A stretch of DNA of 64,000 nt from Paralichthys olivaceus (taxonomy: Eukaryota > Chordata > Actinopteri > Pleuronectiformes > Paralichthyidae), in contig NC_091102.1 of assembly GCF_024713975.1 (NCBI RefSeq), positions 26,385,001 through 26,449,000 on the forward strand, written 5' to 3'. Both the position numbers and the translations under genes were made by a program. The notes under the pieces were generated by a model. The model worked only from the letters and a program-made list of their open reading frames with translations. It was not told where the DNA came from and searched no databases. Shown in pieces: positions 28,558 to 64,000 of the stretch (the stretch's first letter is position 1; every line of letters starts with the position of its first letter).

Positions 28558-28688
28558 TATTGATAAATGAAACCTGGAAGTCACCCAGCAGTGTGAGAAA
28601 CAGTGAAGCCGCCCGTCGTCACGGTTCTCCTCCGGTTGTCCTCCGGGTTTCTTTCGGTCCTTCGTGTCTGCAGCACCGAGCCTTCATA

Positions 28689-40571: not shown

Positions 40572-41588
40572 AGGTAAGTTACCCTGAAACTTTACAACAA
40601 CAAAACCTATTGATTTATTTATTATCATAATTACATATACTTACAAGCCTCAAGTGGTTTTTGATGTTATTGAGGTAATTTACTGTTTATTTAACACGTC
40701 TAATGAAGTTTGAAGCAAGTTAACTAGCTTTAGTAAAGAGTTGTGTTTTGTCATTTGATTGTAATTTTAATAAGTTAATATTAATAAGCTGCATGTGATA
40801 CAGACTTGTATAACCACCATTACTATTACAACCTCTTTTTTTAGCCTGTTATAGAATTCACAGTGAATTAGACTCAGTGTAGATGTGATTATAATCTCTG
40901 CACACTACTGTTGTAAACAGTGCTCATATTTATTATATATGTATCTGTTTTAACACTGCGAGAAGTTGAGGGACTTGAAGTGGACTGTTATCAACAGCAC
41001 TGTGAGAGATTATCACCCTTGAATATTACATATGTGGTAGAAAGACATTATATATATTTGTACAATGTTTATTTCTTTTAGTACATCAGTTTGGCTGAAA
41101 TCTGTGGTGCTTCCACCTGCTGAACACAGAATAAACTGTAAGTACCCGTCTTGGCTGCTTAACACAGCTGATATTACATGTGTCAAAATTATTGTAATTA
41201 TTGTATTGTACAGTATCTGTAAATAATCGTGTTTCTCCTCTTTTCCTTAATATCTACAGATGTGACAATGATTTCAGCATAAAACATCCTTTAACATGAC
41301 TTTTTTCATTTCATGAAGCACTGCAACACCTGATGTCCTCAGAATCCACTGTGGCCGTAGCAACATGGTGGAGATCGGCAGCTTCAGGCTGGTCAACATG
41401 ATAATAATATTGAGTCAATTTCTATATCCATTGTGGTTGGTAAAATTAACACTATCACAACAATGTTCATCTTTTACTTTCAGATTTGATAAACCTTAGT
41501 TAAAAAGTGTTGTCTTTTCTTTTTTGCCATAAGAGACAGAACACGGTCAGCACAGCTATGTCCCTCAGGTTCGTCCGTCCCTAATAAA
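40572..41588 (+). other. Flank of the array with splice-like blocks
   Basis: After the donor at 40,572 there is an AG acceptor near 41,080 and a GTAAGT donor near 41,139. Another acceptor (TATCTACAG) lies at about 41,260, and an exon-like block contains ATGTCCTCAGAATCC at about 41,333. Together they could be small untranslated exons leading toward the truncated exon 3 at 41,590. This is a reading of consensus sites only. Confidence 0.25.
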
Positions 41589-41747
41589 ATGATGACCGAT
41601 AAGGACAAGGCAAGGATTCAAAAGGAGCAAAAGAAAGCAAAGAAAGAGGCAGAGAAGAGGCAAAAGAAGGAGCTGCAAGAGAAGAAGAGGCAGGAGCAGA
41701 GAGACAAACTAGACAGAGAGAAGGAGGAGAAGCGGCAAAGCAAATGA
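41589..41747 (+). pseudogene. Truncated first copy: exon 3 of the coiled-coil gene only
   Basis: Array homology begins at 41,590, inside exon 3, so exons 1 and 2 of this copy are absent. A different upstream sequence supplies two ATG codons in frame (41,589 and 41,592), leaving an open frame of 52 codons. It begins MMTDKDKARIQKEQKKAKKE and stops at the same place as the full copies. It alone has AGC (Ser) instead of AGG (Arg) before the last Lys. The usual acceptor is missing. It could be the last exon of a transcript from the flank, or simply the ragged array edge. Confidence 0.6.
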
Positions 41748-42190
41748 AGAAAATATTTACATTTAGGGCATTTAGCAGATGCTTTTGTCCAAAGCAACTT
41801 ACAATAAGTACATTTGTCACAAGAGAGAAACCATTCTTAAAAAAATAAAGACATTTGAAATTGAATCAATCATCTCTTGTTTCTTCCTCAATACACCCTG
41901 GTGTTCATTTTGTAAGTCATGGTTCCATATAGAGTCAAATATATGATGTGTATATGATGTGATTGAAAGCTAGTAATGTCCAATGGGTGCAGGTCGAGGA
42001 GGGCATGCAGTGTCCTCGAGCTCTCTGTCAGGCTCCACCCCTCGCTCCTACTAATGTGGTCACTTCTGATTTTAAAAAACGAGATGTATTTTCAGACTTT
42101 CATTCTTCACATTTTAGATTCACATCTAAAAAGAAATGATTGTAGGGCTCATATCATGGAAAACTGTTTGTTTAATATCACATTTAACTG

Positions 42191-42286
42191 ACAGTGTCTG
42201 TGATGTCCTATGTGACAGCTTCTGTGATGTCACATGTGACAGTGTCTATGATGTCAAATGTGACAGTGTCTATGATGTCATATTTG
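42191..42286 (+). promoter_or_regulatory. Four 24-bp direct repeats upstream of each coiled-coil gene
   Basis: Units at 42,191, 42,215, 42,239 and 42,263 share ACAGTGTCTATGATGTCAAA followed by TGTG with few changes. Each holds TGATGTC(A), close to a CRE/ATF-type half site. The block is about 200 bases before the start codon and recurs at the same place in all units (from 44,951, 47,711, 50,471, 53,231, 55,991, 58,751 and 61,511). One column (42,209) is T in copies 1-5 and C in copies 6-8. The regulatory role is inferred from position and repetition. Confidence 0.5.
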
Positions 42287-42347
42287 ACTTTGATTGTTTA
42301 ATGTAATTTATCTTTACTTCAAAGCCATCACTACCAGGTTCAGTGCC

Positions 42348-42353
42348 TATAAG
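42348..42353 (+). promoter_or_regulatory. TATA-like box of copy 1
   Basis: TATAAG at 42,348, 140 bases before the exon 1 ATG. A start site would fall near 42,378, giving a 5' UTR of about 110 bases. It is identical in every unit. Later TATATAATA (about 42,461) is closer to the ATG and would leave almost no UTR. Confidence 0.4.
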
Positions 42354-42487
42354 AGTTATGGAGGAGACCTTATGAGCACAACAGCTCCAAAACTAGACCA
42401 CAGATCCACAAATCTTCGATACACGAGACCGTCAGAAGACAGTATATACTTCAGTACACATATATAATACCCCTATATTTGGCCAAC

Positions 42488-44507
42488 ATGCCAAAGAACA
42501 AGTCAGGAAGGGTAAGGTTTCTAAGCAGGACACATCGACGATTTTATTTTATTTTTCCAATGTTTGTCTCAAACTCAAAAATATTTTTTCTGTGAGGGGA
42601 TGGACTTTAAATGAACCCATCACATTGGTGCTAATGCTAGAATGCTAGCAGTAGCATACTAGTGATTTTTTTTAATTTGTGTGTGCACTGCGTGGTGAAA
42701 TCTCTCGCAAGTCACGTAATTAAACGTAAACGTAATTGTTGACAATAATAATAAATATTGTAGTTAATTAGTTATATCATTAGCTATATATTGTTTGTTT
42801 TTCATTTAATCAATAATCGTGTAAATCCTGAAACCGTGATATTTCCTCTGGCTCTGCGCCAAAATTTCATATCGTGACATCCATAGTATGTAGAGACTGT
42901 ATTTAACAGAATTGAAGAAACTGTATTTAAATGTACTGGTGGTTAAATCAATGATTTGTTGGTCTGGTTCATCAACATTTAATTCAAAGTGAGTGTGGGA
43001 CTGTGTTTTTAACTGTTATATGTTTGTTCGTGTCTTTCAGGTGCCAGACCACGAGAAATTGTTTGAGGACCTCCTTGAGGAAAAGCAGAATTTGGATTCT
43101 AAGAATATGCATCTGGCTCATGAAAATGCCAGTCTGAAGATCGCCATGTCCTGCAAAGAAGCTTCATGGAAAAAGGAAAAGGAGAGCATGCAGAATGCAG
43201 ATTATGAAAAACTCAAGGAAGAACTACAGCTCGACCTTAAGGATGCCAAGAAAGAGTTGAGGCTCCAAGAGAAGGACTACAGGTCCTTGAGTACTCGTTG
43301 TCAAAGCCAGCAGGCAGAGATCCACAAGATCAGACGTGACCTCAAGCAAAGGTGCAACCACGTCAATGAGCTGGAGTACTCCATTAAACAGAGGGAACAG
43401 GTGATCGACAGGACAGTGCATGAGAAAATGGCACTGGAAGAGGAAATCAATGAGCTCACAACCAAGCTCAAAGCTATGGGGACAAAAGTTCTCCAGAACG
43501 AGCCTGACTGGCAGTCAGAAATCAAGGCTCTGAAGCGCGAGCTCAGCCGTGAGCAGGCAGAGAAGGAGGCTGGCTCCAGTAGAATCAAGGAGCTGGAGAG
43601 ACAGCTCAAGGTCACAGAAGAGAAGTGGGTGACCAAACATGAGGCCAGAATTGTCCAAACGGATCAGCTGATCAACAGTCTCACCAGTCAAAATAAGGCA
43701 CTGGAAGCCAGCAACAAGAAACTCCTGTCCATGCAGCAAGCCATGGAGGCAAGGATCCTCCAGAACAAGACTGAGTGGGAGACTAAAGTTAACACTCTGG
43801 AGGACCATCTCAGTAGTGAGCGGGTGGAGAAGGAGGCTGGCTCCAATCGAATCAAGGAGCTGGAGAGACAGCTCAAGGTCACAGAAGAGAAGTGGGTGAC
43901 CAAACGTGAGGCCAGAATTGTCTATACGGATCAGGTGATCAACAGTCTCAGCAGTCAGAATATGGCACTGGAAGCCAGCAACCAGAGGCTCATCTCCGTG
44001 CAGCAAGCCATCGAGGCAAGGATCCTCCAGAACAAGACTGAGTGGGAGACGAAAGTTAACACTCTGGAGGACCATCTCAGTAGTGAGCAGGCTGAGAAGG
44101 AGGCTGGCTTCACAAAAATCAAGGAGCTGGAGAAACTGGTCAGCAATACTGAGCAGATGTGGGCGGCCAAGCATGAGGCAGACATACTAAAGCTGCTCAT
44201 TCTGAAACAGATCAAGCTTCAGGTAAGTCACATCAGCTCTGTTTGATCTGAATAAGAACTTGTTGCACTTTAAGTTTGTTTCTTATTCAGACTTTTGAAA
44301 GAGAAAATATCTAAACACTTGTCGTCTCTGTCTTTTCAGGAACTGGCCTTGATGACCGATAAGGACAAGGCAAGGATTCAAAAGGAGCAAAAGAAAGCAA
44401 AGAAAGAGGCAGAGAAGAGGCAAAAGAAGGAGCTGCAAGAGAAGAAGAGGCAGGAGCAGAGAGACAAACTAGACAGAGAGAAGGAGGAGAAGCGGCAAAG
44501 GAAATGA
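42488..44507 (+). CDS. Array gene copy 1: 457-residue coiled-coil protein (three exons)
   Basis: Exons are 42,488-42,511, 43,041-44,222 and 44,340-44,507. All junctions are phase 0 with GT-AG introns of 529 and 117 bp. The start is chosen because MPKNKSGR has an A at -3 and ends at a GTAAGG donor. The alternative ATG at 42,993 lies inside intron 1. Residues 9-156 are heptad-rich coiled coil. Residues 157-245, 246-334 and 335-402 are 89-residue repeats (the last one partial) with LQN..EW...., KEAG..RIKELERQLK and TEEKWVTK. Exon 3 encodes a K/E/R-only helix (KKAKKEAEKRQKKELQEKKR) like a single alpha-helix domain or nuclear signal. There is no signal peptide or membrane segment. The family is not recognised; a structural or scaffold role is only a guess. 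This copy has K75, R82, W165, R174, T252 and R297. Confidence 0.8.
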
Positions 44508-44514
44508 AGAAAAT

Positions 44515-44609
44515 ATTTACATTTAGGGCATTTAGCAGATGCTTTTGTCCAAAGCAACTTACAATAAGTACATTTGTGACAAGAGAGAAACCATTCTTAA
44601 AAAAATAAA
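44515..44609 (+). terminator. 3' UTR of copy 1: transposon-derived segment and AATAAA
   Basis: Right after the stop, ACATTTAGGGCATTTAGCAG and ATGCTTTTGTCCAAAGCAAC, then TTACAATAAGTACATTTG, match a phrase common in fish transposable elements; a relative is at 33,984-34,040. AATAAA follows at 44,604-44,609. The same arrangement is found 2,760 bases apart in all units (AATAAA at 41,844, 47,364, 50,124, 52,884, 55,644, 58,404, 61,164 and 63,924). Confidence 0.65.
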
Positions 44610-45247
44610 GACATTTGAAATTGAATCAATCATCTCTTGTTTCTTCCTCAATACACCCTGGTGTTCATTTTGTAAGTCATGGTTCCATATAGAGTCAAAT
44701 ATATGATGTGTATATGATGTGATTGAAAGCTAGTAATGTCCAATGGGTGCAGGTCGAGGAGGGCATGCAGTGTCCTCGAGCTCTCAGTCAGGCTCCACCC
44801 CTCGCTCCTACTAATGTGGTCGCTTCTGATTTTAAAAAACGAGATGTATTTTCAGACTTTCATTCTTCACATTTTAGATTCACATCTAAAAAGAAATGAT
44901 TGTAGGGCTCATATCATGGAAAACTGTTTGTTTAATATCACATTTAACTGACAGTGTCTGTGATGTCCTATGTGACAGCTTCTGTGATGTCACATGTGAC
45001 AGTGTCTATGATGTCAAATGTGACAGTGTCTATGATGTCATATTTGACTTTGATTGTTTAATGTAATTTATCTTTACTTCAAAGCCATCACTACCAGGTT
45101 CAGTGCCTATAAGAGTTATGGAGGAGACCTTATGAGCACAACAGCTCCAAAACTAGACCACAGATCCACAAATCTTCGATACACGAGACCGTCAGAAGAC
45201 AGTATATACTTCAGTACACATATATAATACCCCTATATTTGGCCAAC

Positions 45248-47267
45248 ATGCCAAAGAACAAGTCAGGAAGGGTAAGGTTTCTAAGCAGGACACATCGACG
45301 ATTTTATTTTATTTTTCCAATGTTTGTCTCAAACTCAAAAATATTTTTTCTGTGAGGGGATGGACTTTAAATGAACCCATCACATTGGTGCTAATGCTAG
45401 AATGCTAGCAGTAGCATACTAGTGATTTTTTTTAATTTGTGTGTGCACTGCGTGGTGAAATCTCTCGCAAGTCACGTAATTAAACGTAAACGTAATTGTT
45501 GACAATAATAATAAATATTGTAGTTAATTAGTTATATCATTAGCTATATATTGTTTGTTTTTCATTTAATCAATAATCGTGTAAATCCTGAAACCGTGAC
45601 ATTTCCTCTGGCTCTGCGCCAAAATTTCATATCGTGACATCCATAGTATGTAGAGACTGTATTTAACAGAATTGAAGAAACTGTATTTAAATGTACTGGT
45701 GGTTAAATCAATGATTTGTTGGTCTGGTTCATCAACATTTAATTCAAAGTGAGTGTGGGACTGTGTTTTTAACTGTTATATGTTTGTTCGTGTCTTTCAG
45801 GTGCCAGACCACGAGAAATTGTTTGAGGACCTCCTTGAGGAAAAGCAGAATTTGGATTCTAAGAATATGCATCTGGCTCATGAAAATGCCAGTCTGAAGA
45901 TCGCCATGTCCTGCAAAGAAGCTTCATGGAAAAAGGAAAAGGAGAGCATGCAGAATGCAGATTATGAAAAACTCAAGGAAGAACTACAGCTCGACCTTAA
46001 GGATGCCAAGAAAGAGTTGAGGCTCCAAGAGAAGGACTACAGGTCCTTGAGTACTCGTTGTCAAAGCCAGCAGGCAGAGATCCACAAGATCAGACGTGAC
46101 CTCAAGCAAAGGTGCAACCACGTCAATGAGCTGGAGTACTCCATTAAACAGAGGGAACAGGTGATCGACAGGACAGTGCATGAGAAAATGGCACTGGAAG
46201 AGGAAATCAATGAGCTCACAACCAAGCTCAAAGCTATGGGGACAAAAGTTCTCCAGAACGAGCCTGACTGGCAGTCAGAAATCAAGGCTCTGAAGCGCGA
46301 GCTCAGCCGTGAGCAGGCAGAGAAGGAGGCTGGCTCCAGTAGAATCAAGGAGCTGGAGAGACAGCTCAAGGTCACAGAAGAGAAGTGGGTGACCAAACAT
46401 GAGGCCAGAATTGTCCAAACGGATCAGCTGATCAACAGTCTCACCAGTCAAAATAAGGCACTGGAAGCCAGCAACAAGAAACTCCTGTCCATGCAGCAAG
46501 CCATGGAGGCAAGGATCCTCCAGAACAAGACTGAGTGGGAGACTAAAGTTAACACTCTGGAGGACCATCTCAGTAGTGAGCGGGTGGAGAAGGAGGCTGG
46601 CTCCAATCGAATCAAGGAGCTGGAGAGACAGCTCAAGGTCACAGAAGAGAAGTGGGTGACCAAACGTGAGGCCAGAATTGTCTATACGGATCAGGTGATC
46701 AACAGTCTCAGCAGTCAGAATATGGCACTGGAAGCCAGCAACCAGAGGCTCATCTCCGTGCAGCAAGCCATCGAGGCAAGGATCCTCCAGAACAAGACTG
46801 AGTGGGAGACGAAAGTTAACACTCTGGAGGACCATCTCAGTAGTGAGCAGGCTGAGAAGGAGGCTGGCTTCACAAAAATCAAGGAGCTGGAGAAACTGGT
46901 CAGCAATACTGAGCAGATGTGGGCGGCCAAGCATGAGGCAGACATACTAAAGCTGCTCATTCTGAAACAGATCAAGCTTCAGGTAAGTCACATCAGCTCT
47001 GTTTGATCTGAATAAGAACTTGTTGCACTTTAAGTTTGTTTCTTATTCAGACTTTCGAAAGAGAAAATATCTAAACACTTGTCGTCTCTGTCTTTTCAGG
47101 AACTGGCCTTGATGACCGATAAGGACAAGGCAAGGATTCAAAAGGAGCAAAAGAAAGCAAAGAAAGAGGCAGAGAAGAGGCAAAAGAAGGAGCTGCAAGA
47201 GAAGAAGAGGCAGGAGCAGAGAGACAAACTAGACAGAGAGAAGGAGGAGAAGCGGCAAAGGAAATGA
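45248..47267 (+). CDS. Array gene copy 2: coiled-coil protein
   Basis: Exons are 45,248-45,271, 45,801-46,982 and 47,100-47,267. The predicted protein is identical to copy 1 at every residue. The unit differs from copy 1 only in non-coding columns: G at 44,822 in the intergenic part (shared with copy 7), C at 45,600 in intron 1, and C at 47,056 in intron 2. Its own 24-bp repeats, TATA-like box and AATAAA are present. Confidence 0.8.
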
Positions 47268-48007
47268 AGAAAATATTTACATTTAGGGCATTTAGCAGAT
47301 GCTTTTGTCCAAAGCAACTTACAATAAGTACATTTGTGACAAGAGAGAAACCATTCTTAAAAAAATAAAGACATTTGAAATTGAATCAATCATCTCTTGT
47401 TTCTTCCTCAATACACCCTGGTGTTCATTTTGTAAGTCATGGTTCCATATAGAGTCAAATATATGATGTGTATATGATGTGATTGAAAGCTAGTAATGTC
47501 CAATGGGTGCAGGTCGAGGAGGGCATGCAGTGTCCTCGAGCTCTCAGTCAGGCTCCACCCCTCGCTCCTACTAATGTGGTCACTTCTGATTTTAAAAAAC
47601 GAGATGTTTTTTCAGACTTTCATTCTTCACATTTTAGATTCACATCTAAAAAGAAATGATTGTAGGGCTCATATCATGGAAAACTGTTTGTTTAATATCA
47701 CATTTAACTGACAGTGTCTGTGATGTCCTATGTGACAGCTTCTGTGATGTCACATGTGACAGTGTCTATGATGTCAAATGTGACAGTGTCTATGATGTCA
47801 TATTTGACTTTGATTGTTTAATGTAATTTATCTTTACTTCAAAGCTATCACTACCAGGTTCAGTGCCTATAAGAGTTATGGAGGAGACCTTATGAGCACA
47901 ACAGCTCCAAAACTAGACCACAGATCCACAAATCTTCGATACACGAGACCGTCAGAAGACAGTATATACTTCAGTACACATATATAATACCCCTATATTT
48001 GGCCAAC

Positions 48008-50027
48008 ATGCCAAAGAACAAGTCAGGAAGGGTAAGGTTTCTAAGCAGGACACATCGACGATTTTATTTTATTTTTCCAATGTTTGTCTCAAACTCAAAA
48101 ATATTTTTTCTGTGAGGGGATGGACTTTAAATGAACCCATCACATTGGTGCTAATGCTAGAATGCTAGCAGTAGCATACTAGTGATTTTTTTAAATTTGT
48201 GTGTGCACTGCGTGGTGAAATCTCTCGCAAGTCACGTAATTAAACGTAAACGTAATTGTTGACAATAATAATAAATATTGTAGTTAATTAGTTATATCAT
48301 TAGCTATATATTGTTTGTTTTTCATTTAATCAATAATCGTGTAAATCCTGAAACCGTGACATTTCCTCTGGCTCTGCGCCAAAATTTCATATCGTGACAT
48401 CCATAGTATGTAGAGACTGTATTTAACAGAATTGAAGAAACTGTATTTAAATGTACTGGTGGTTAAATCAATGATTTGTTGGTCTGGTTCATCAACATTT
48501 AATTCAAAGTGAGTGTGGGACTGTGTTTTTAACTGTTATATGTTTGTTCGTGTCTTTCAGGTGCCAGACCACGAGAAATTGTTTGAGGACCTCCTTGAGG
48601 AAAAGCAGAATTTGGATTCTAAGAATATGCATCTGGCTCATGAAAATGCCAGTCTGAAGATCGCCATGTCCTGCAAAGAAGCTTCATGGAAAAAGGAAAA
48701 GGAGAGCATGCAGAATGCAGATTATGAAAAACTCAAGGAAGAACTACAGCTCGACCTTAAGGATGCCAAGAAAGAGTTGAGGCTCCAAGAGAAGGACTAC
48801 AGGTCCTTGAGTACTCGTTGTCAAAGCCAGCAGGCAGAGATCCACAAGATCAGACGTGACCTCAAGCAAAGGTGCAACCACGTCAATGAGCTGGAGTACT
48901 CCATTAAACAGAGGGAACAGGTGATCGACAGGACAGTGCATGAGAAAATGGCACTGGAAGAGGAAATCAATGAGCTCACAACCAAGCTCAAAGCTATGGG
49001 GACAAAAGTTCTCCAGAACGAGCCTGACTGGCAGTCAGAAATCAAGGCTCTGAAGCGCGAGCTCAGCCGTGAGCAGGCAGAGAAGGAGGCTGGCTCCAGT
49101 AGAATCAAGGAGCTGGAGAGACAGCTCAAGGTCACAGAAGAGAAGTGGGTGACCAAACATGAGGCCAGAATTGTCCAAACGGATCAGCTGATCAACAGTC
49201 TCACCAGTCAAAATAAGGCACTGGAAGCCAGCAACAAGAAACTCCTGTCCATGCAGCAAGCCATGGAGGCAAGGATCCTCCAGAACAAGACTGAGTGGGA
49301 GACTAAAGTTAACACTCTGGAGGACCATCTCAGTAGTGAGCGGGTGGAGAAGGAGGCTGGCTCCAATCGAATCAAGGAGCTGGAGAGACAGCTCAAGGTC
49401 ACAGAAGAGAAGTGGGTGACCAAACGTGAGGCCAGAATTGTCTATACGGATCAGGTGATCAACAGTCTCAGCAGTCAGAATATGGCACTGGAAGCCAGCA
49501 ACCAGAGGCTCATCTCCGTGCAGCAAGCCATCGAGGCAAGGATCCTCCAGAACAAGACTGAGTGGGAGACGAAAGTTAACACTCTGGAGGACCATCTCAG
49601 TAGTGAGCAGGCTGAGAAGGAGGCTGGCTTCACAAAAATCAAGGAGCTGGAGAAACTGGTCAGCAATACTGAGCAGATGTGGGCGGCCAAGCATGAGGCA
49701 GACATACTAAAGCTGCTCATTCTGAAACAGATCAAGCTTCAGGTAAGTCACATCAGCTCTGTTTGATCTGAATAAGAACTTGTTGCACTTTAAGTTTGTT
49801 TCTTATTCAGACTTTCGAAAGAGAAAATATCTAAACACTTGTCGTCTCTGTCTTTTCAGGAACTGGCCTTGATGACCGATAAGGACAAGGCAAGGATTCA
49901 AAAGGAGCAAAAGAAAGCAAAGAAAGAGGCAGAGAAGAGGCAAAAGAAGGAGCTGCAAGAGAAGAAGAGGCAGGAGCAGAGAGACAAACTAGACAGAGAG
50001 AAGGAGGAGAAGCGGCAAAGGAAATGA
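48008..50027 (+). CDS. Array gene copy 3: coiled-coil protein
   Basis: Exons are 48,008-48,031, 48,561-49,742 and 49,860-50,027. The protein equals copies 1 and 2 and is the last copy with Arg at 174. Its upstream half carries T at 47,608 and A at 48,193, a pair found again in copy 5 but not in copy 4. A private T lies at 47,846. No frame damage. Confidence 0.8.
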
Positions 50028-50767
50028 AGAAAATATTTACATTTAGGGCATTTAGCAGATGCTTTTGTCCAAAGCAACTTACAATAAGTACATTTGTGAC
50101 AAGAGAGAAACCATTCTTAAAAAAATAAAGACATTTGAAATTGAATCAATCATCTCTTGTTTCTTCCTCAATACACCCTGGTGTTCATTTTGTAAGTCAT
50201 GGTTCCATATAGAGTCAAATATATGATGTGTATATGATGTGATTGAAAGCTAGTAATGTCCAATGGGTGCAGGTCGAGGAGGGCATGCAGTGTCCTCGAG
50301 CTCTCAGTCAGGCTCCACCCCTCGCTCCTACTAATGTGGTCACTTCTGATTTTAAAAAACGAGATGTATTTTCAGACTTTCATTCTTCACATTTTAGATT
50401 CACATCTAAAAAGAAATGATTGTAGGGCTCATATCATGGAAAACTGTTTGTTTAATATCACATTTAACTGACAGTGTCTGTGATGTCCTATGTGACAGCT
50501 TCTGTGATGTCACATGTGACAGTGTCTATGATGTCAAATGTGACAGTGTCTATGATGTCATATTTGACTTTGATTGTTTAATGTAATTTATCTTTACTTC
50601 AAAGCCATCACTACCAGGTTCAGTGCCTATAAGAGTTATGGAGGAGACCTTATGAGCACAACAGCTCCAAAACTAGACCACAGATCCACAAATCTTCGAT
50701 ACACGAGACCGTCAGAAGACAGTATATACTTCAGTACACATATATAATACCCCTATATTTGGCCAAC

Positions 50768-52787
50768 ATGCCAAAGAACAAGTCAGGAAGGGTAAGGTTT
50801 CTAAGCAGGACACATCGACGATTTTATTTTATTTTTCCAATGTTTGTCTCAAACTCAAAAATATTTTTTCTGTGAGGGGATGGACTTTAAATGAACCCAT
50901 CACATTGGTGCTAATGCTAGAATGCTAGCAGTAGCATACTAGTGATTTTTTTTAATTTGTGTGTGCACTGCGTGGTGAAATCTCTCGCAAGTCACGTAAT
51001 TAAACGTAAACGTAATTGTTGACAATAATAATAAATATTGTAGTTAATTAGTTATATCATTAGCTATATATTGTTTGTTTTTCATTTAATCAATAATCGT
51101 GTAAATCCTGAAACCGTGATATTTCCTCTGGCTCTGCGCCAAAATTTCATATCGTGACATCCATAGTATGTAGAGACTGTATTTAACAGAATTGAAGAAA
51201 CTGTATTTAAATGTACTGGTGGTTAAATCAATGATTTGTTGGTCTGGTTCATCAACATTTAATTCAAAGTGAGTGTGGGACTGTGTTTTTAACTGTTATA
51301 TGTTTGTTCGTGTCTTTCAGGTGCCAGACCACGAGAAATTGTTTGAGGACCTCCTTGAGGAAAAGCAGAATTTGGATTCTAAGAATATGCATCTGGCTCA
51401 TGAAAATGCCAGTCTGAAGATCGCCATGTCCTGCAAAGAAGCTTCATGGAAAAAGGAAAAGGAGAGCATGCAGAATGCAGATTATGAAAAACTCAAGGAA
51501 GAACTACAGCTCGACCTTAAGGATGCCAAGAAAGAGTTGAGGCTCCAAGAGAAGGACTACAGGTCCTTGAGTACTCGTTGTCAAAGCCAGCAGGCAGAGA
51601 TCCACAAGATCAGACGTGACCTCAAGCAAAGGTGCAACCACGTCAATGAGCTGGAGTACTCCATTAAACAGAGGGAACAGGTGATCGACAGGACAGTGCA
51701 TGAGAAAATGGCACTGGAAGAGGAAATCAATGAGCTCACAACCAAGCTCAAAGCTATGGGGACAAAAGTTCTCCAGAACGAGCCTGACTGCCAGTCAGAA
51801 ATCAAGGCTCTGAAGCACGAGCTCAGCCGTGAGCAGGCAGAGAAGGAGGCTGGCTCCAGTAGAATCAAGGAGCTGGAGAGACAGCTCAAGGTCACAGAAG
51901 AGAAGTGGGTGACCAAACATGAGGCCAGAATTGTCCAAACGGATCAGCTGATCAACAGTCTCACCAGTCAAAATAAGGCACTGGAAGCCAGCAACAAGAA
52001 ACTCCTGTCCATGCAGCAAGCCATGGAGGCAAGGATCCTCCAGAACAAGACTGAGTGGGAGACTAAAGTTAACACTCTGGAGGACCATCTCAGTAGTGAG
52101 CGGGTGGAGAAGGAGGCTGGCTCCAATCGAATCAAGGAGCTGGAGAGACAGCTCAAGGTCACAGAAGAGAAGTGGGTGACCAAACGTGAGGCCAGAATTG
52201 TCTATACGGATCAGGTGATCAACAGTCTCAGCAGTCAGAATATGGCACTGGAAGCCAGCAACCAGAGGCTCATCTCCGTGCAGCAAGCCATCGAGGCAAG
52301 GATCCTCCAGAACAAGACTGAGTGGGAGACGAAAGTTAACACTCTGGAGGACCATCTCAGTAGTGAGCAGGCTGAGAAGGAGGCTGGCTTCACAAAAATC
52401 AAGGAGCTGGAGAAACTGGTCAGCAATACTGAGCAGATGTGGGCGGCCAAGCATGAGGCAGACATACTAAAGCTGCTCATTCTGAAACAGATCAAGCTTC
52501 AGGTAAGTCACATCAGCTCTGTTTGATCTGAATAAGAACTTGTTGCACTTTAAGTTTGTTTCTTATTCAGACTTTTGAAAGAGAAAATATCTAAACACTT
52601 GTCGTCTCTGTCTTTTCAGGAACTGGCCTTGATGACCGATAAGGACAAGGCAAGGATTCAAAAGGAGCAAAAGAAAGCAAAGAAAGAGGCAGAGAAGAGG
52701 CAAAAGAAGGAGCTGCAAGAGAAGAAGAGGCAGGAGCAGAGAGACAAACTAGACAGAGAGAAGGAGGAGAAGCGGCAAAGGAAATGA
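50768..52787 (+). CDS. Array gene copy 4: coiled-coil protein, W165C
   Basis: Exons are 50,768-50,791, 51,321-52,502 and 52,620-52,787. It is the first copy with His at 174 (CGC to CAC at 51,817), shared by all copies to the right. A private TGG to TGC change at 51,791 turns Trp165, at the start of the first 89-residue repeat, into Cys. This Trp is kept in all other copies and at the equivalent place of the other repeats (TEW), so the change may disturb a packing position. Confidence 0.8.
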
Positions 52788-53527
52788 AGAAAATATTTAC
52801 ATTTAGGGCATTTAGCAGATGCTTTTGTCCAAAGCAACTTACAATAAGTACATTTGTGACAAGAGAGAAACCATTCTTAAAAAAATAAAGACATTTGAAA
52901 TTGAATCAATCATCTCTTGTTTCTTCCTCAATACACCCTGGTGTTCATTTTGTAAGTCATGGTTCCATATAGAGTCAAATATATGATGTGTATATGATGT
53001 GATTGAAAGCTAGTAATGTCCAATGGGTGCAGGTCGAGGAGGGCATGCAGTGTCCTCGAGCTCTCAGTCAGGCTCCACCCCTCGCTCCTACTAATGTGGT
53101 CACTTCTGATTTTAAAAAACGAGATGTTTTTTCAGACTTTCATTCTTCACATTTTAGATTCACATCTAAAAAGAAATGATTGTAGGGCTCATATCATGGA
53201 AAACTGTTTGTTTAATATCACATTTAACTGACAGTGTCTGTGATGTCCTATGTGACAGCTTCTGTGATGTCACATGTGACAGTGTCTATGATGTCAAATG
53301 TGACAGTGTCTATGATGTCATATTTGACTTTGATTGTTTAATGTAATTTATCTTTACTTCAAAGCCATCACTACCAGGTTCAGTGCCTATAAGAGTTATG
53401 GAGGAGACCTTATGAGCACAACAGCTCCAAAACTAGACCACAGATCCACAAATCTTCGATACACGAGACCGTCAGAAGACAGTATATACTTCAGTACACA
53501 TATATAATACCCCTATATTTGGCCAAC

Positions 53528-55547
53528 ATGCCAAAGAACAAGTCAGGAAGGGTAAGGTTTCTAAGCAGGACACATCGACGATTTTATTTTATTTTTCCAA
53601 TGTTTGTCTCAAACTCAAAAATATTTTTTCTGTGAGGGGATGGACTTTAAATGAACCCATCACATTGGTGCTAATGCTAGAATGCTAGCAGTAGCATACT
53701 AGTGATTTTTTTAAATTTGTGTGTGCACTGCGTGGTGAAATCTCTCGCAAGTCACGTAATTAAACGTAAACGTAATTGTTGACAATAATAATAAATATTG
53801 TAGTTAATTAGTTATATCATTAGCTATATATTGTTTGTTTTTCATTTAATCAATAATCGTGTAAATCCTGAAACCGTGACATTTCCTCTGGCTCTGCGCC
53901 AAAATTTCATATCGTGACATCCATAGTATGTAGAGACTGTATTTAACAGAATTGAAGAAACTGTATTTAAATGTACTGGTGGTTAAATCAATGATTTGTT
54001 GGTCTGGTTCATCAACATTTAATTCAAAGTGAGTGTGGGACTGTGTTTTTAACTGTTATATGTTTGTTCGTGTCTTTCAGGTGCCAGACCACGAGAAATT
54101 GTTTGAGGACCTCCTTGAGGAAAAGCAGAATTTGGATTCTAAGAATATGCATCTGGCTCATGAAAATGCCAGTCTGAAGATCGCCATGTCCTGCAAAGAA
54201 GCTTCATGGAAAAAGGAAAAGGAGAGCATGCAGAATGCAGATTATGAAAAACTCAAGGAAGAACTACAGCTCGACCTTAAGGATGCCAAGAAAGAGTTGA
54301 GGCTCCAAGAGAAGGACTACAGGTCCTTGAGTACTCGTTGTCAAAGCCAGCAGGCAGAGATCCACAAGATCAGACGTGACCTCAAGCAAAGGTGCAACCA
54401 CGTCAATGAGCTGGAGTACTCCATTAAACAGAGGGAACAGGTGATCGACAGGACAGTGCATGAGAAAATGGCACTGGAAGAGGAAATCAATGAGCTCACA
54501 ACCAAGCTCAAAGCTATGGGGACAAAAGTTCTCCAGAACGAGCCTGACTGGCAGTCAGAAATCAAGGCTCTGAAGCACGAGCTCAGCCGTGAGCAGGCAG
54601 AGAAGGAGGCTGGCTCCAGTAGAATCAAGGAGCTGGAGAGACAGCTCAAGGTCACAGAAGAGAAGTGGGTGACCAAACATGAGGCCAGAATTGTCCAAAC
54701 GGATCAGCTGATCAACAGTCTCACCAGTCAAAATAAGGCACTGGAAGCCAGCAACAAGAAACTCCTGTCCATGCAGCAAGCCATGGAGGCAAGGATCCTC
54801 CAGAACAAGACTGAGTGGGAGACTAAAGTTAACACTCTGGAGGACCATCTCAGTAGTGAGCGGGTGGAGAAGGAGGCTGGCTCCAATCGAATCAAGGAGC
54901 TGGAGAGACAGCTCAAGGTCACAGAAGAGAAGTGGGTGACCAAACGTGAGGCCAGAATTGTCTATACGGATCAGGTGATCAACAGTCTCAGCAGTCAGAA
55001 TATGGCACTGGAAGCCAGCAACCAGAGGCTCATCTCCGTGCAGCAAGCCATCGAGGCAAGGATCCTCCAGAACAAGACTGAGTGGGAGACGAAAGTTAAC
55101 ACTCTGGAGGACCATCTCAGTAGTGAGCAGGCTGAGAAGGAGGCTGGCTTCACAAAAATCAAGGAGCTGGAGAAACTGGTCAGCAATACTGAGCAGATGT
55201 GGGCGGCCAAGCATGAGGCAGACATACTAAAGCTGCTCATTCTGAAACAGATCAAGCTTCAGGTAAGTCACATCAGCTCTGTTTGATCTGAATAAGAACT
55301 TGTTGCACTTTAAGTTTGTTTCTTATTCAGACTTTTGAAAGAGAAAATATCTAAACACTTGTCGTCTCTGTCTTTTCAGGAACTGGCCTTGATGACCGAT
55401 AAGGACAAGGCAAGGATTCAAAAGGAGCAAAAGAAAGCAAAGAAAGAGGCAGAGAAGAGGCAAAAGAAGGAGCTGCAAGAGAAGAAGAGGCAGGAGCAGA
55501 GAGACAAACTAGACAGAGAGAAGGAGGAGAAGCGGCAAAGGAAATGA
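53528..55547 (+). CDS. Array gene copy 5: coiled-coil protein
   Basis: Exons are 53,528-53,551, 54,081-55,262 and 55,380-55,547. The protein has His174 and is otherwise like copy 1. Upstream and intron 1 columns match copy 3 (T at 53,128, A at 53,713, C at 53,880), while exon 2 and intron 2 (T at 55,336) match copy 4. The unit is therefore a mosaic with its switch between 53,880 and 54,577. Confidence 0.8.
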
Positions 55548-56287
55548 AGAAAATATTTACATTTAGGGCATTTAGCAGATGCTTTTGTCCAAAGCAACTT
55601 ACAATAAGTACATTTGTCACAAGAGAGAAACCATTCTTAAAAAAATAAAGACATTTGAAATTGAATCAATCATCTCTTGTTTCTTCCTCAATACACCCTG
55701 GTGTTCATTTTGTAAGTCATGGTTCCATATAGAGTCAAATATATGATGTGTATATGATGTGATTGAAAGCTAGTAATGTCCAATGGGTGCAGGTCGAGGA
55801 GGGCATGCAGTGTCCTCGAGCTCTCAGTCAGGCTCCACCCCTCGCTCCTACTAATGTGGTCACTTCTGATTTTAAAAAACGAGATGTATTTTCAGACTTT
55901 CATTCTTCACATTTTAGATTCACATCTAAAAAGAAATGATTGTAGGGCTCATATCATGGAAAACTGTTTGTTTAATATCACATTTAACTGACAGTGTCTG
56001 TGATGTCCCATGTGACAGCTTCTGTGATGTCACATGTGACAGTGTCTATGATGTCAAATGTGACAGTGTCTATGATGTCATATTTGACTTTGATTGTTTA
56101 ATGTAATTTATCTTTACTTCAAAGCCATCACTACCAGGTTCAGTGCCTATAAGAGTTATGGAGGAGACCTTATGAGCACAACAGCTCCAAAACTAGACCA
56201 CAGATCCACAAATCTTCGATACACGAGACCGTCAGAAGACAGTATATACTTCAGTACACATATATAATACCCCTATATTTGGCCAAC

Positions 56288-58307
56288 ATGCCAAAGAACA
56301 AGTCAGGAAGGGTAAGGTTTCTAAGCAGGACACATCGACGATTTTATTTTATTTTTCCAATGTTTGTCTCAAACTCAAAAATATTTTTTCTGTGAGGGGA
56401 TGGACTTTAAATGAACCCATCACATTGGTGCTAATGCTAGAATGCTAGCAGTAGCATACTAGTGATTTTTTTTAATTTGTGTGTGCACTGCGTGGTGAAA
56501 TCTCTCGCAAGTCACGTAATTAAACGTAAACGTAATTGTTGACAATAATAATAAATATTGTAGTTAATTAGTTATATCATTAGCTATATATTGTTTGTTT
56601 TTCATTTAATCAATAATCGTGTAAATCCTGAAACCGTGATATTTCCTCTGGCTCTGCGCCAAAATTTCATATCGTGACATCCATAGTATGTAGAGACTGT
56701 ATTTAACAGAATTGAAGAAACTGTATTTAAATGTACTGGTGGTTAAATCAATGATTTGTTGGTCTGGTTCATCAACATTTAATTCAAAGTGAGTGTGGGA
56801 CTGTGTTTTTAACTGTTATATGTTTGTTCGTGTCTTTCAGGTGCCAGACCACGAGAAATTGTTTGAGGACCTCCTTGAGGAAAAGCAGAATTTGGATTCT
56901 AAGAATATGCATCTGGCTCATGAAAATGCCAGTCTGAAGATCGCCATGTCCTGCAAAGAAGCTTCATGGAAAAAGGAAAAGGAGAGCATGCAGAATGCAG
57001 ATTATGAAAAACTCAAGGAAGAACTACAGCTCGACCTTAAGGATGCCAAGAAAGAGTTGAGGCTCCAAGAGAAGGACTACAGGTCCTTGAGTACTCGTTG
57101 TCAAAGCCAGCAGGCAGAGATCCACAAGATCAGACGTGACCTCAAGCAAAGGTGCAACCACGTCAATGAGCTGGAGTACTCCATTAAACAGAGGGAACAG
57201 GTGATCGACAGGACAGTGCATGAGAAAATGGCACTGGAAGAGGAAATCAATGAGCTCACAACCAAGCTCAAAGCTATGGGGACAAAAGTTCTCCAGAACG
57301 AGCCTGACTGGCAGTCAGAAATCAAGGCTCTGAAGCACGAGCTCAGCCGTGAGCAGGCAGAGAAGGAGGCTGGCTCCAGTAGAATCAAGGAGCTGGAGAG
57401 ACAGCTCAAGGTCACAGAAGAGAAGTGGGTGACCAAACATGAGGCCAGAATTGTCCAAACGGATCAGCTGATCAACAGTCTCACCAGTCAAAATAAGGCA
57501 CTGGAAGCCAGCAACAAGAAACTCCTGTCCATGCAGCAAGCCATGGAGGCAAGGATCCTCCAGAACAAGACTGAGTGGGAGACTAAAGTTAACACTCTGG
57601 AGGACCATCTCAGTAGTGAGCGGGTGGAGAAGGAGGCTGGCTCCAATCGAATCAAGGAGCTGGAGAGACAGCTCAAGGTCACAGAAGAGAAGTGGGTGAC
57701 CAAACATGAGGCCAGAATTGTCTATACGGATCAGGTGATCAACAGTCTCAGCAGTCAGAATATGGCACTGGAAGCCAGCAACCAGAGGCTCATCTCCGTG
57801 CAGCAAGCCATCGAGGCAAGGATCCTCCAGAACAAGACTGAGTGGGAGACGAAAGTTAACACTCTGGAGGACCATCTCAGTAGTGAGCAGGCTGAGAAGG
57901 AGGCTGGCTTCACAAAAATCAAGGAGCTGGAGAAACTGGTCAGCAATACTGAGCAGATGTGGGCGGCCAAGCATGAGGCAGACATACTAAAGCTGCTCAT
58001 TCTGAAACAGATCAAGCTTCAGGTAAGTCACATCAGCTCTGTTTGATCTGAATAAGAACTTGTTGCACTTTAAGTTTGTTTCTTATTCAGACTTTCGAAA
58101 GAGAAAATATCTAAACACTTGTCGTCTCTGTCTTTTCAGGAACTGGCCTTGATGACCGATAAGGACAAGGCAAGGATTCAAAAGGAGCAAAAGAAAGCAA
58201 AGAAAGAGGCAGAGAAGAGGCAAAAGAAGGAGCTGCAAGAGAAGAAGAGGCAGGAGCAGAGAGACAAACTAGACAGAGAGAAGGAGGAGAAGCGGCAAAG
58301 GAAATGA
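56288..58307 (+). CDS. Array gene copy 6: coiled-coil protein, R297H
   Basis: Exons are 56,288-56,311, 56,841-58,022 and 58,140-58,307. It has His174 plus a private CGT to CAT change at 57,706. That turns Arg297 into His in the second 89-residue repeat and makes it match the same position of repeat 1 (TKHEAR). This could be a point mutation at a CpG or a conversion between repeats. The intron 1 columns (T at 56,473 and 56,640) match copies 1 and 4. Confidence 0.8.
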
Positions 58308-59047
58308 AGAAAATATTTACATTTAGGGCATTTAGCAGATGCTTTTGTCCAAAGCAACTTACAATAAGTACATTTGTGACAAGAGAGAAACCATTCTTAA
58401 AAAAATAAAGACATTTGAAATTGAATCAATCATCTCTTGTTTCTTCCTCAATACACCCTGGTGTTCATTTTGTAAGTCATGGTTCCATATAGAGTCAAAT
58501 ATATGATGTGTATATGATGTGATTGAAAGCTAGTAATGTCCAATGGGTGCAGGTCGAGGAGGGCATGCAGTGTCCTCGAGCTCTCAGTCAGGCTCCACCC
58601 CTCGCTCCTACTAATGTGGTCGCTTCTGATTTTAAAAAACGAGATGTATTTTCAGACTTTCATTCTTCACATTTTAGATTCACATCTAAAAAGAAATGAT
58701 TGTAGGGCTCATATCATGGAAAACTGTTTGTTTAATATCACATTTAACTGACAGTGTCTGTGATGTCCCATGTGACAGCTTCTGTGATGTCACATGTGAC
58801 AGTGTCTATGATGTCAAATGTGACAGTGTCTATGATGTCATATTTGACTTTGATTGTTTAATGTAATTTATCTTTACTTCAAAGCCATCACTACCAGGTT
58901 CAGTGCCTATAAGAGTTATGGAGGAGACCTTATGAGCACAACAGCTCCAAAACTAGACCACAGATCCACAAATCTTCGATACACGAGACCGTCAGAAGAC
59001 AGTATATACTTCAGTACACATATATAATACCCCTATATTTAGCCAAC

Positions 59048-61067
59048 ATGCCAAAGAACAAGTCAGGAAGGGTAAGGTTTCTAAGCAGGACACATCGACG
59101 ATTTTATTTTATTTTTCCAATGTTTGTCTCAAACTCAAAAATATTTTTTCTGTGAGGGGATGGACTTTAAATGAACCCATCACATTGGTGCTAATGCTAG
59201 AATGCTAGCAGTAGCATACTAGTGATTTTTTTAAATTTGTGTGTGCACTGCGTGGTGAAATCTCTCGCAAGTCACGTAATTAAACGTAAACGTAATTGTT
59301 GACAATAATAATAAATATTGTAGTTAATTAGTTATATCATTAGCTATATATTGTTTGTTTTTCATTTGATCAATAATCGTGTAAATCCTGAAACCGTGAC
59401 ATTTCCTCTGGCTCTGCGCCAAAATTTCATATCGTGACATCCATAGTATGTAGAGACTGTATTTAACAGAATTGAAGAAACTGTATTTAAATGTACTGGT
59501 GGTTAAATCAATGATTTGTTGGTCTGGTTCATCAACATTTAATTCAAAGTGAGTGTGGGACTGTGTTTTTAACTGTTATATGTTTGTTCGTGTCTTTCAG
59601 GTGCCAGACCACGAGAAATTGTTTGAGGACCTCCTTGAGGAAAAGCAGAATTTGGATTCTAAGAATATGCATCTGGCTCATGAAAATGCCAGTCTGAAGA
59701 TCGCCATGTCCTGCAAAGAAGCTTCATGGAAAAAAGAAAAGGAGAGCATGCAGAATGCAGATTATGAAAAACTCAAGGAAGAACTACAGCTCGACCTTCA
59801 GGATGCCAAGAAAGAGTTGAGGCTCCAAGAGAAGGACTACAGGTCCTTGAGTACTCGTTGTCAAAGCCAGCAGGCAGAGATCCACAAGATCAGACGTGAC
59901 CTCAAGCAAAGGTGCAACCACGTCAATGAGCTGGAGTACTCCATTAAACAGAGGGAACAGGTGATCGACAGGACAGTGCATGAGAAAATGGCACTGGAAG
60001 AGGAAATCAATGAGCTCACAACCAAGCTCAAAGCTATGGGGACAAAAGTTCTCCAGAACGAGCCTGACTGGCAGTCAGAAATCAAGGCTCTGAAGCACGA
60101 GCTCAGCCGTGAGCAGGCAGAGAAGGAGGCTGGCTCCAGTAGAATCAAGGAGCTGGAGAGACAGCTCAAGGTCACAGAAGAGAAGTGGGTGACCAAACAT
60201 GAGGCCAGAATTGTCCAAACGGATCAGCTGATCAACAGTCTCACCAGTCAAAATAAGGCACTGGAAGCCAGCAACAAGAAACTCCTGTCCATGCAGCAAG
60301 CCATGGAGGCAAGGATCCTCCAGAACAAGTCTGAGTGGGAGACTAAAGTTAACACTCTGGAGGACCATCTCAGTAGTGAGCGGGTGGAGAAGGAGGCTGG
60401 CTCCAATCGAATCAAGGAGCTGGAGAGACAGCTCAAGGTCACAGAAGAGAAGTGGGTGACCAAACGTGAGGCCAGAATTGTCTATACGGATCAGGTGATC
60501 AACAGTCTCAGCAGTCAGAATATGGCACTGGAAGCCAGCAACCAGAGGCTCATCTCCGTGCAGCAAGCCATCGAGGCAAGGATCCTCCAGAACAAGACTG
60601 AGTGGGAGACGAAAGTTAACACTCTGGAGGACCATCTCAGTAGTGAGCAGGCTGAGAAGGAGGCTGGCTTCACAAAAATCAAGGAGCTGGAGAAACTGGT
60701 CAGCAATACTGAGCAGATGTGGGCGGCCAAGCATGAGGCAGACATACTAAAGCTGCTCATTCTGAAACAGATCAAGCTTCAGGTAAGTCACATCAGCTCT
60801 GTTTGATCTGAATAAGAACTTGTTGCACTTTAAGTTTGTTTCTTATTCAGACTTTCGAAAGAGAAAATATCTAAACACTTGTCGTCTCTGTCTTTTCAGG
60901 AACTGGCCTTGATGACCGATAAGGACAAGGCAAGGATTCAAAAGGAGCAAAAGAAAGCAAAGAAAGAGGCAGAGAAGAGGCAAAAGAAGGAGCTGCAAGA
61001 GAAGAAGAGGCAGGAGCAGAGAGACAAACTAGACAGAGAGAAGGAGGAGAAGCGGCAAAGGAAATGA
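59048..61067 (+). CDS. Array gene copy 7: coiled-coil protein, K75Q and T252S
   Basis: Exons are 59,048-59,071, 59,601-60,782 and 60,900-61,067. Differences from copy 1 are Lys75 to Gln (shared with copy 8), His174, a private Thr252 to Ser at 60,330, and one silent change in the codon for Lys53. The base before the start region at 59,041 is A and intron 1 has G at 59,368, both shared only with copy 8. This marks copies 7 and 8 as the closest pair. Confidence 0.8.
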
Positions 61068-61807
61068 AGAAAATATTTACATTTAGGGCATTTAGCAGAT
61101 GCTTTTGTCCAAAGCAACTTACAATAAGTACATTTGTCACAAGAGAGAAACCATTCTTAAAAAAATAAAGACATTTGAAATTGAATCAATCATCTCTTGT
61201 TTCTTCCTCAATACACCCTGGTGTTCATTTTGTAAGTCATGGTTCCATATAGAGTCAAATATATGATGTGTATATGATGTGATTGAAAGCTAGTAATGTC
61301 CAATGGGTGCAGGTCGAGGAGGGCATGCAGTGTCCTCGAGCTCTCAGTCAGGCTCCACCCCTCGCTCCTACTAATGTGGTCACTTCTGATTTTAAAAAAC
61401 GAGATGTATTTTCAGACTTTCATTCTTCACATTTTAGATTCACATCTAAAAAGAAATGATTGTAGGGCTCATATCATGGAAAACTGTTTGTTTAATATCA
61501 CATTTAACTGACAGTGTCTGTGATGTCCCATGTGACAGCTTCTGTGATGTCACATGTGACAGTGTCTATGATGTCAAATGTGACAGTGTCTATGATGTCA
61601 TATTTGACTTTGATTGTTTAATGTAATTTATCTTTACTTCAAAGCCATCACTACCAGGTTCAGTGCCTATAAGAGTTATGGAGGAGACCTTATGAGCACA
61701 ACAGCTCCAAAACTAGACCACAGATCCACAAATCTTCGATACACGAGACCGTCAGAAGACAGTATATACTTCAGTACACATATATAATACCCCTATATTT
61801 AGCCAAC

Positions 61808-63827
61808 ATGCCAAAGAACAAGTCAGGAAGGGTAAGGTTTCTAAGCAGGACACATCGACGATTTTATTTTATTTTTCCAATGTTTGTCTCAAACTCAAAA
61901 ATATTTTTTCTGTGAGGGGATGGACTTTAAATGAACCCATCACATTGGTGCTAATGCTAGAATGCTAGCAGTAGCATACTAGTGATTTTTTTAAATTTGT
62001 GTGTGCACTGCGTGGTGAAATCTCTCGCAAGTCACGTAATTAAACGTAAACGTAATTGTTGACAATAATAATAAATATTGTAGTTAATTAGTTATATCAT
62101 TAGCTATATATTGTTTGTTTTTCATTTGATCAATAATCGTGTAAATCCTGAAACCGTGACATTTCCTCTGGCTCTGCGCCAAAATTTCATATCGTGACAT
62201 CCATAGTATGTAGAGACTGTATTTAACAGAATTGAAGAAACTGTATTTAAATGTACTGGTGGTTAAATCAATGATTTGTTGGTCTGGTTCATCAACATTT
62301 AATTCAAAGTGAGTGTGGGACTGTGTTTTTAACTGTTATATGTTTGTTCGTGTCTTTCAGGTGCCAGACCACGAGAAATTGTTTGAGGACCTCCTTGAGG
62401 AAAAGCAGAATTTGGATTCTAAGAATATGCATCTGGCTCATGAAAATGCCAGTCTGAAGATCGCCATGTCCTGCAAAGAAGCTTCATGGAAAAAGGAAAA
62501 GGAGAGCATGCAGAATGCAGATTATGAAAAACTCAAGGAAGAACTACAGCTCGACCTTCAGGATGCCAAGAAAGAGTTGTGGCTCCAAGAGAAGGACTAC
62601 AGGTCCTTGAGTACTCGTTGTCAAAGCCAGCAGGCAGAGATCCACAAGATCAGACGTGACCTCAAGCAAAGGTGCAACCACGTCAATGAGCTGGAGTACT
62701 CCATTAAACAGAGGGAACAGGTGATCGACAGGACAGTGCATGAGAAAATGGCACTGGAAGAGGAAATCAATGAGCTCACAACCAAGCTCAAAGCTATGGG
62801 GACAAAAGTTCTCCAGAACGAGCCTGACTGGCAGTCAGAAATCAAGGCTCTGAAGCACGAGCTCAGCCGTGAGCAGGCAGAGAAGGAGGCTGGCTCCAGT
62901 AGAATCAAGGAGCTGGAGAGACAGCTCAAGGTCACAGAAGAGAAGTGGGTGACCAAACATGAGGCCAGAATTGTCCAAACGGATCAGCTGATCAACAGTC
63001 TCACCAGTCAAAATAAGGCACTGGAAGCCAGCAACAAGAAACTCCTGTCCATGCAGCAAGCCATGGAGGCAAGGATCCTCCAGAACAAGACTGAGTGGGA
63101 GACGAAAGTTAACACTCTGGAGGACCATCTCAGTAGTGAGCGGGTGGAGAAGGAGGCTGGCTCCAATCGAATCAAGGAGCTGGAGAGACAGCTCAAGGTC
63201 ACAGAAGAGAAGTGGGTGACCAAACGTGAGGCCAGAATTGTCTATACGGATCAGGTGATCAACAGTCTCAGCAGTCAGAATATGGCACTGGAAGCCAGCA
63301 ACCAGAGGCTCATCTCCGTGCAGCAAGCCATCGAGGCAAGGATCCTCCAGAACAAGACTGAGTGGGAGACGAAAGTTAACACTCTGGAGGACCATCTCAG
63401 TAGTGAGCAGGCTGAGAAGGAGGCTGGCTTCACAAAAATCAAGGAGCTGGAGAAACTGGTCAGCAATACTGAGCAGATGTGGGCGGCCAAGCATGAGGCA
63501 GACATACTAAAGCTGCTCATTCTGAAACAGATCAAGCTTCAGGTAAGTCACATCAGCTCTGTTTGATTTGAATAAGAACTTGTTGCACTTTAAGTTTGTT
63601 TCTTATTCAGACTTTCGAAAGAGAAAATATCTAAACACTTGTCGTCTCTGTCTTTTCAGGAACTGGCCTTGATGACCGATAAGGACAAGGCAAGGATTCA
63701 AAAGGAGCAAAAGAAAGCAAAGAAAGAGGCAGAGAAGAGGCAAAAGAAGGAGCTGCAAGAGAAGAAGAGGCAGGAGCAGAGAGACAAACTAGACAGAGAG
63801 AAGGAGGAGAAGCGGCAAAGGAAATGA
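61808..63827 (+). CDS. Array gene copy 8: coiled-coil protein, K75Q and R82W
   Basis: Exons are 61,808-61,831, 62,361-63,542 and 63,660-63,827. It carries Gln75 and His174. A private AGG to TGG change at 62,580 makes Arg82 a Trp in the first coiled-coil segment. There is one silent change at codon 256 (63,104) that makes repeat 2 match repeat 3 at that base, and a private T at 63,568 in intron 2. The 3' flank after its stop runs to the end of the window with the AATAAA at 63,924, so the gene is complete. Confidence 0.8.
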
Positions 63828-64000
63828 AGAAAATATTTACATTTAGGGCATTTAGCAGATGCTTTTGTCCAAAGCAACTTACAATAAGTACATTTGTCAC
63901 AAGAGAGAAACCATTCTTAAAAAAATAAAGACATTTGAAATTGAATCAATCATCTCTTGTTTCTTCCTCAATACACCCTGGTGTTCATTTTGTAAGTCAT

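Follow-up and report, generated by a model that had tools for sequence, protein, structure and literature searches.

Macrosatellites that carry a gene are a known kind of element and are best known from mammals. Passages on the human D4Z4 macrosatellite at 4q describe a 3.3-kb unit with one gene (DUX4) per repeat, present in 8 to >100 units at a chromosome end (PMC13138017, PMC3616921). Passages on the human TAF11-Like, PRR20 and ZAV macrosatellites describe expression mainly in the testis (PMC3018141). Here, analysis of a stretch of 64,000 nucleotides from the flounder Paralichthys olivaceus (referred to as the window) revealed a tandem array of a three-exon coiled-coil gene, which is probably a gene-bearing macrosatellite located at flounder chromosome ends and kept uniform by unequal exchange. 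The window was placed at C10:26385001-26449000 of an assembly of 588 Mb with 25 contigs, 24 of which are chromosome-scale. As far as the passages on D4Z4/DUX4 go, the flounder array resembles that system in its kilobase-scale unit, its one gene per repeat, its long tandem arrays and its chromosome-end location. It differs from it in the gene, since DUX4 is described as a retrogene encoding a germline transcription factor, whereas the flounder unit carries a three-exon coiled-coil gene without a homeodomain. TAF11-Like, PRR20 and ZAV, in the passages concerned, likewise consist of tandem gene-bearing units and encode other proteins (PMC3018141).

The original prediction had considered the array to be possibly undescribed. 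No account of the array, of its protein or of its spread over chromosome ends was found in the open-licence PMC literature, and both array and protein are apparently undescribed. PMC12731029 brings up satellite DNA together with P. olivaceus, but its satellite passages deal with a 187-bp Sparidae satellite and not the flounder array, the consulted passages of PMC11535246 hold no statement on telomeres or tandem arrays, and passages of PMC9523440 place the sex locus on linkage group 9.

From position 41588 to position 64000, the window consists of a head-to-tail tandem array with a unit of 2,760 bp. Comparison of the window with itself at a 2,760-bp shift, in 250-bp blocks, revealed an identity of ~0.25 up to position 41,500 and of 0.992 to 1.000 in all blocks from 41,751 to the end. 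Eight complete three-exon genes were identified in the window, with exons of 24, 1182 and 168 bp (stop codon included) that repeat at +2760 x k and are all bounded by GT-AG introns. Their products comprise 457 amino acids (aa) each and differ from the product of gene 1 by three residues at most. The original prediction had described eight complete genes in one orientation at 2,760-bp spacing, each with its own upstream repeats, TATA-like box and AATAAA, and this arrangement was seen in all window units. The features of the array are listed below in window coordinates, with the signals given for the first unit.

41588..64000, plus strand: 2,760-bp tandem array, detected by shifted self-comparison and extending past the window to the end of C10
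41588..41747, plus strand: truncated exon 3 remnant at the array start (160 bp; the array opens in the middle of exon 3)
42189..42288, plus strand: 24-bp repeat in 4.2 copies, ~200 to 300 bp 5' of the ATG, containing three TGATGTCA; present in every unit
42348..42353, plus strand: TATA-like TATAAG, 140 bp 5' of the ATG; recurs with the unit
42488..44507, plus strand: gene 1, exons 42488-42511, 43041-44222 and 44340-44507; 457 aa
43491..44222, plus strand: three in-frame copies of an 89-codon internal repeat inside exon 2 (the third partial, 66 codons)
44522..44575, minus strand: 3' end of a UnaL2 long interspersed nuclear element (LINE), antisense, 15 bp past the stop codon (Rfam)
44604: AATAAA, ~100 bp past the stop codon; recurs with the unit
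45248..47267, plus strand: gene 2, exons 45248-45271, 45801-46982 and 47100-47267; 457 aa
48008..50027, plus strand: gene 3, exons 48008-48031, 48561-49742 and 49860-50027; 457 aa
50768..52787, plus strand: gene 4, exons 50768-50791, 51321-52502 and 52620-52787; 457 aa, W165C and R174H
53528..55547, plus strand: gene 5, exons 53528-53551, 54081-55262 and 55380-55547; 457 aa, R174H
56288..58307, plus strand: gene 6, exons 56288-56311, 56841-58022 and 58140-58307; 457 aa, R174H and R297H
59048..61067, plus strand: gene 7, exons 59048-59071, 59601-60782 and 60900-61067; 457 aa, K75Q, R174H and T252S
61808..63827, plus strand: gene 8, exons 61808-61831, 62361-63542 and 63660-63827; 457 aa, K75Q, R82W and R174H

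As expected of a gene-bearing macrosatellite, an open reading frame (ORF) with gene signals was found inside the unit. Exon 2 contains no stop codon in its own frame versus 11 and 29 in the alternative frames. Its 3-periodicity amounted to 9.6 in the unique part and 19.1 in the repeated part, versus 0.5 for intron 1 and 1.3 for the intergenic sequence. The open exon 2 frame and the period-3 signal indicate that a real gene gave rise to the unit. The TGATGTCA of the upstream 24-bp repeats differs by one base from the cAMP response element TGACGTCA; TGACGTCA itself was not found in these repeats (42189-42288). The antisense UnaL2 LINE tail was detected once per unit in nine units (41762 to 63895, minus strand; 58.3 bits versus a gathering score of 55). 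It was the only Rfam match, and ARAGORN found no tRNA in the window; a non-coding RNA or tRNA origin of the unit was rejected on these grounds. The array was also considered as a transposon and rejected as such, because the unit lacks a transposase or reverse transcriptase and the array lies 30 kb away from the LINE found in the window (6.6-11.8 kb). Outside the array, tblastn detected no further family members in the window, and the sole blastn match was 60 bp of LINE tail at 33985.

Past the window, the array continues for 52,863 bp and reaches the final base of C10. The C10 array comprises 26 complete units in an unbroken row, with 26 complete genes and a 27th cut by the contig end, so that the 2,760-bp unit shows the kilobase-scale, uninterrupted head-to-tail order of a gene-bearing macrosatellite. 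Its inner edge adjoins single-copy-like genes, 75 kb from the point where the C10 sequence stops. A genome search with exon 2 yielded at least 40 matches among 812 candidates, of which 40 were scored. These were divided between C10 and C7 (20 each), and the C7 copies among them span 26.37 to 27.64 Mb on both strands.

The terminal sequence of each of the 24 large contigs was examined, over 1,500 bases in 17 contigs, over the array on C10 and over 300 bases only in the remaining six. C10 and C20 (plus strand) and C3 and C7 (minus strand) stop inside the array. Near-identical coding units in tandem therefore run into the end of at least four chromosome-scale sequences, and the many units and the hard-to-assemble array (4 of 24 chromosome-scale ends inside it) correspond to what is expected of a gene-bearing macrosatellite. 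The eight copies of the original prediction are correct for the window and fall far short of the total, given the 26 complete genes on C10 and the arrays at the other ends. Since four sequences stop inside the array, the copy number is a lower bound and the true number exceeds the assembled one. In the three of these four ends with at least 1.5 kb read, the identity was 98.3 to 100% over long stretches, and short pieces gave 95 to 96%. The end units of C3 and C7 are 95 to 99% like their C10 counterparts, and that of C7 is shorter by one 89-codon repeat. Among the contig starts, 12 of 24 consist of N and the other 12 carry no array. The N tracts cover the first 300 to 600 bases of C3, C4, C7-C11, C13, C15, C16, C21 and C23, where arrays are possible.

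Comparison of the window units revealed 23 variable columns, or 20 without the three in the exon 3 remnant, and 8 of these 20 are coding. Among the 26 complete units of C10, substitutions occur at 12 coding and at 16 non-coding sites, with a mean pairwise difference of 6.9 of 2,760 (0.25%). Fish accumulate 5-10 x 10^-9 substitutions per site per year, and this rate gives the units a rough divergence age of ~125,000 to 250,000 years if conversion is ignored. The distance between C10 units was 4.3 substitutions at lag 1 and rose to 8.2 at lag 11. The four-gamete test was failed by 55 of 120 informative site pairs on C10, as unequal exchange or conversion predicts. Homogenisation of the kind known from gene-bearing macrosatellites was thus observed, with a trend that reverses at long lags. 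The ~0.25% unit divergence and the four-gamete failures bear out the original prediction of a recent, homogenised multicopy family. Its statement that indels and frame breaks are absent holds within the window, where no indel was found, but not beyond it. Unit 9 of C10 lacks 11 bp of intron 1, and unit 27, the last before the contig stops, has lost 1 bp of exon 2, which causes a frameshift. Two 10-kb samples of C7 contained six complete genes, of which three are interrupted (420, 124 and 124 aa) and three are intact.

These observations are consistent with the following mechanism. A gene-bearing macrosatellite would have its inner edge in the window, and its unit is a whole gene, including upstream repeats, TATA-like box, exons and poly(A) signal. 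Copies would be made, lost and homogenised by unequal crossing over and gene conversion, both among units and from one chromosome end to another. Homogenisation would outpace mutation, and the gene would ride in the satellite. Most copies would be kept by turnover and not by selection per copy, with the protein family having been shaped by past selection. At least some units may be transcribed, and the analogy to human macrosatellite genes would make the germline the likeliest site. The protein may form filament- or scaffold-like oligomers. Because human gene-bearing macrosatellites are mostly expressed in the testis, the germline is the first place to look. Mouse Speer, TSPY and Drosophila Stellate are testis-amplified coiled-coil or multicopy families. 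They share with the flounder array a lineage-limited tandem amplification, a likeness that serves only as a lead.

Several results weigh against a macrosatellite at chromosome ends. No telomere motif runs were seen at the four array-bearing contig ends (C10, C3, C7 and C20); telomere runs were detected at the ends of C6 and C19. Because no telomere was seen beyond any array, the term "chromosome end" depends on the point at which the assembly stops. Assemblies also break off at repeats on technical grounds, and a centromere could lie at the end of flounder arms. The distance between C10 units does not rise cleanly with lag, since it drops to 6 to 7.6 at lags of at least 19. All 26 complete C10 genes are intact in frame and splice sites and encode 12 distinct proteins. 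Furthermore, the ratio of nonsynonymous to synonymous substitution rates (dN/dS) between ten units of C10, C3 and C7 was below 1 in 35 of the 43 pairs for which it was defined (45 pairs in total; range, 0.12 to 1.42), although these pairs are non-independent and contain at most six synonymous changes each. A weak constraint on the copies is therefore possible.

The intact genes and the low dN/dS values would also be expected if the array were a dosage-selected functional cluster, like histones or some testis arrays, in which each copy is under purifying selection. The conservation of the N- and C-terminal parts of the protein among P. olivaceus paralogues, with traces in Thunnus, points in the same direction. 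Against this stands the spectrum of changes on C10. Its 26 genes contain nine nonsynonymous and three synonymous sites, which corresponds to a neutral ratio (expected synonymous share, 0.28; p = 1.0), and coding and non-coding sites are equally variable (p = 0.57). Since ~5% of random coding substitutions create a stop codon, a dozen coding changes without a stop are expected by chance, and at ~0.25% divergence the intactness of the genes carries little weight. The internal repeats of exon 2 gave dN/dS values of 1.02, 0.72 and 0.70. In view of the neutral ratio on C10 and the three broken genes among the six sampled on C7, selection for dosage, which the original prediction had raised as one alternative, is not supported as acting on every copy, and a dosage-selected cluster is unlikely.

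The window protein has a mass of 54 kDa and an isoelectric point (pI) of 8.9, with a basic tail of pI 10. A hydrophobic period of 3.56 (heptad-like) was found over residues 1 to 400 and was reached by none of 300 shuffles; the tail shows no such period. The AlphaFold model of the close relative P0001 contains helices at residues 12 to 160, 163 to 201 and 233 to 454 (mean predicted local distance difference test score, 76; predicted template modeling score, 0.26). The window protein is accordingly predicted to be an almost wholly helical coiled coil with a basic tail. No Pfam family was found above the cut-off (best, DUF3584 with 16.1 bits versus a cut-off of 31), and hence no homeodomain of the D4Z4/DUX4 kind. 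No sequence relative was found in the PDB at E <= 0.01.

The original prediction had called for a homologue search with the protein, and relatives were found. The searches used a 100-word scheme in which the best 7,999 (single-sequence) and the best 8,000 (profile) candidates were scored, so that absence from other fish is weak evidence. The single-sequence search yielded at least 21 clusters, namely 20 from P. olivaceus, which comprise 40 member sequences, plus P0021, located on a 16.7-kb ENA contig. The profile search yielded at least 25 clusters, of which 22 are from P. olivaceus, one is P0021 and two are from Thunnus thynnus. P0021 was considered as a bridge to other species and rejected, since its own matches, among those listed, were only itself and P0009. 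The Thunnus thynnus proteins P0024 and P0025 (329 and 273 aa; profile E = 4e-6 and 2e-5) are 44% identical over only 23% of the query and share with the window proteins a C-terminal run like LLILKxIxLQELALxTD and the basic tail. The Thunnus relatives indicate that the family is older than the flounder. Among the matches listed, the lineage specificity proposed originally thus applies to the expansion and not to the family.

Within P. olivaceus, the family has two branches, an array type with 89-residue repeats and a FAZ1-like type with 21-residue repeats. The RefSeq proteins P0001 and P0016 are 95% and 98% identical to the window proteins. The FAZ1-like branch differs from them by runs of the 21-residue repeat and a shorter tail. 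In this sister branch (P0004-P0020), which is located on C3, C16, C21 and one other contig, the 21-residue repeats (three heptads) vary in number. The P. olivaceus RefSeq entries "flagellar attachment zone protein 1-like," "calponin homology domain-containing protein DDB_G0272472-like," "DNA ligase 1-like" and "trichohyalin-like" belong to the same family and have the N- and C-terminal parts in common. Pfam domains of flagellar attachment zone, calponin-homology, DNA ligase or trichohyalin proteins were not found in the window protein, and the automatically assigned RefSeq names are misleading, having arisen from chance coiled-coil likeness. None of the 25 relatives listed is located on C10 or C20. 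The missing entries on these two contigs and the misnaming of the listed ones constitute an annotation blind spot. The RefSeq relatives carry splice isoforms X1-X3; by custom, such isoform listing reflects transcript support, which here applies to the relatives and not to the window copies. At residues 390-391, the C10 proteins contain the sequence DILKLL. The L at this site is missing from the aligned RefSeq relatives and from the C3 end unit and is present in the C7 end unit. C7 appears to hold forms both with and without this residue.

The coiled-coil product of the repeated gene might act in cis on chromosome ends, by bouquet attachment, clustering or transmission bias. Satellite and protein would then have spread together, as a self-promoting element derived from an ordinary percomorph gene. 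We consider this a long shot. A product with a role at chromosome ends or in meiosis would make the array a selfish or structural element of a new type. The predicted coiled coil and basic tail of the product, together with the terminal position on four chromosomes and the recent spread, would suit a selfish array in which gene or repeat promotes its own inheritance through meiotic or centromere-like drive. Such drive would explain an explosive, terminal, lineage-limited spread, but neutral unequal exchange gives the same pattern, and we regard drive as very unlikely. The neutral substitution ratio and the broken C7 units could also be read as a non-coding satellite that carries a dead or silent gene fossil. 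The 26 intact C10 frames, the strong codon periodicity and the isoforms of the RefSeq relatives argue against such a fossil, which is just as improbable as drive.

An assembly artefact, in which one or two real copies were multiplied by mis-assembly, would fit the end of the C10 contig within the array, the near identity of its last ten units and the indel in the very last of them, but it can be dismissed because private and shared variants are distributed among the units in a position-dependent manner, three further chromosome ends and the C7 stretch carry diverged versions with other repeat numbers, and RefSeq family members lie on seven contigs. The copies are distinguishable by sequence and do not represent one copy repeated in error, as the original prediction had allowed for. 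Assembly errors are more likely to hide copies than to add them. As a gene-bearing macrosatellite in a fish, with a one-gene unit, several chromosome ends, intact and broken copies and a diverged sister branch, the array would allow the rise, spread and decay of a coding satellite to be watched.

The flank of the window, between its start and the array, is unremarkable and contains the following features.

6643-11826, minus strand: non-long-terminal-repeat (non-LTR) retrotransposon with several split open frames; RVT_1 reverse transcriptase, 2e-33
31429-31521, plus strand: COX8 exon
~38267-38446, minus strand: TMEM170 domain match

An ORF at 28473-28955 is presumably the first exon of COX8. 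In the retrotransposon at 6643-11826, a CCHC zinc-knuckle ORF, an endonuclease-like stretch and a zf-RVT match were observed, all below the Pfam cut-off.

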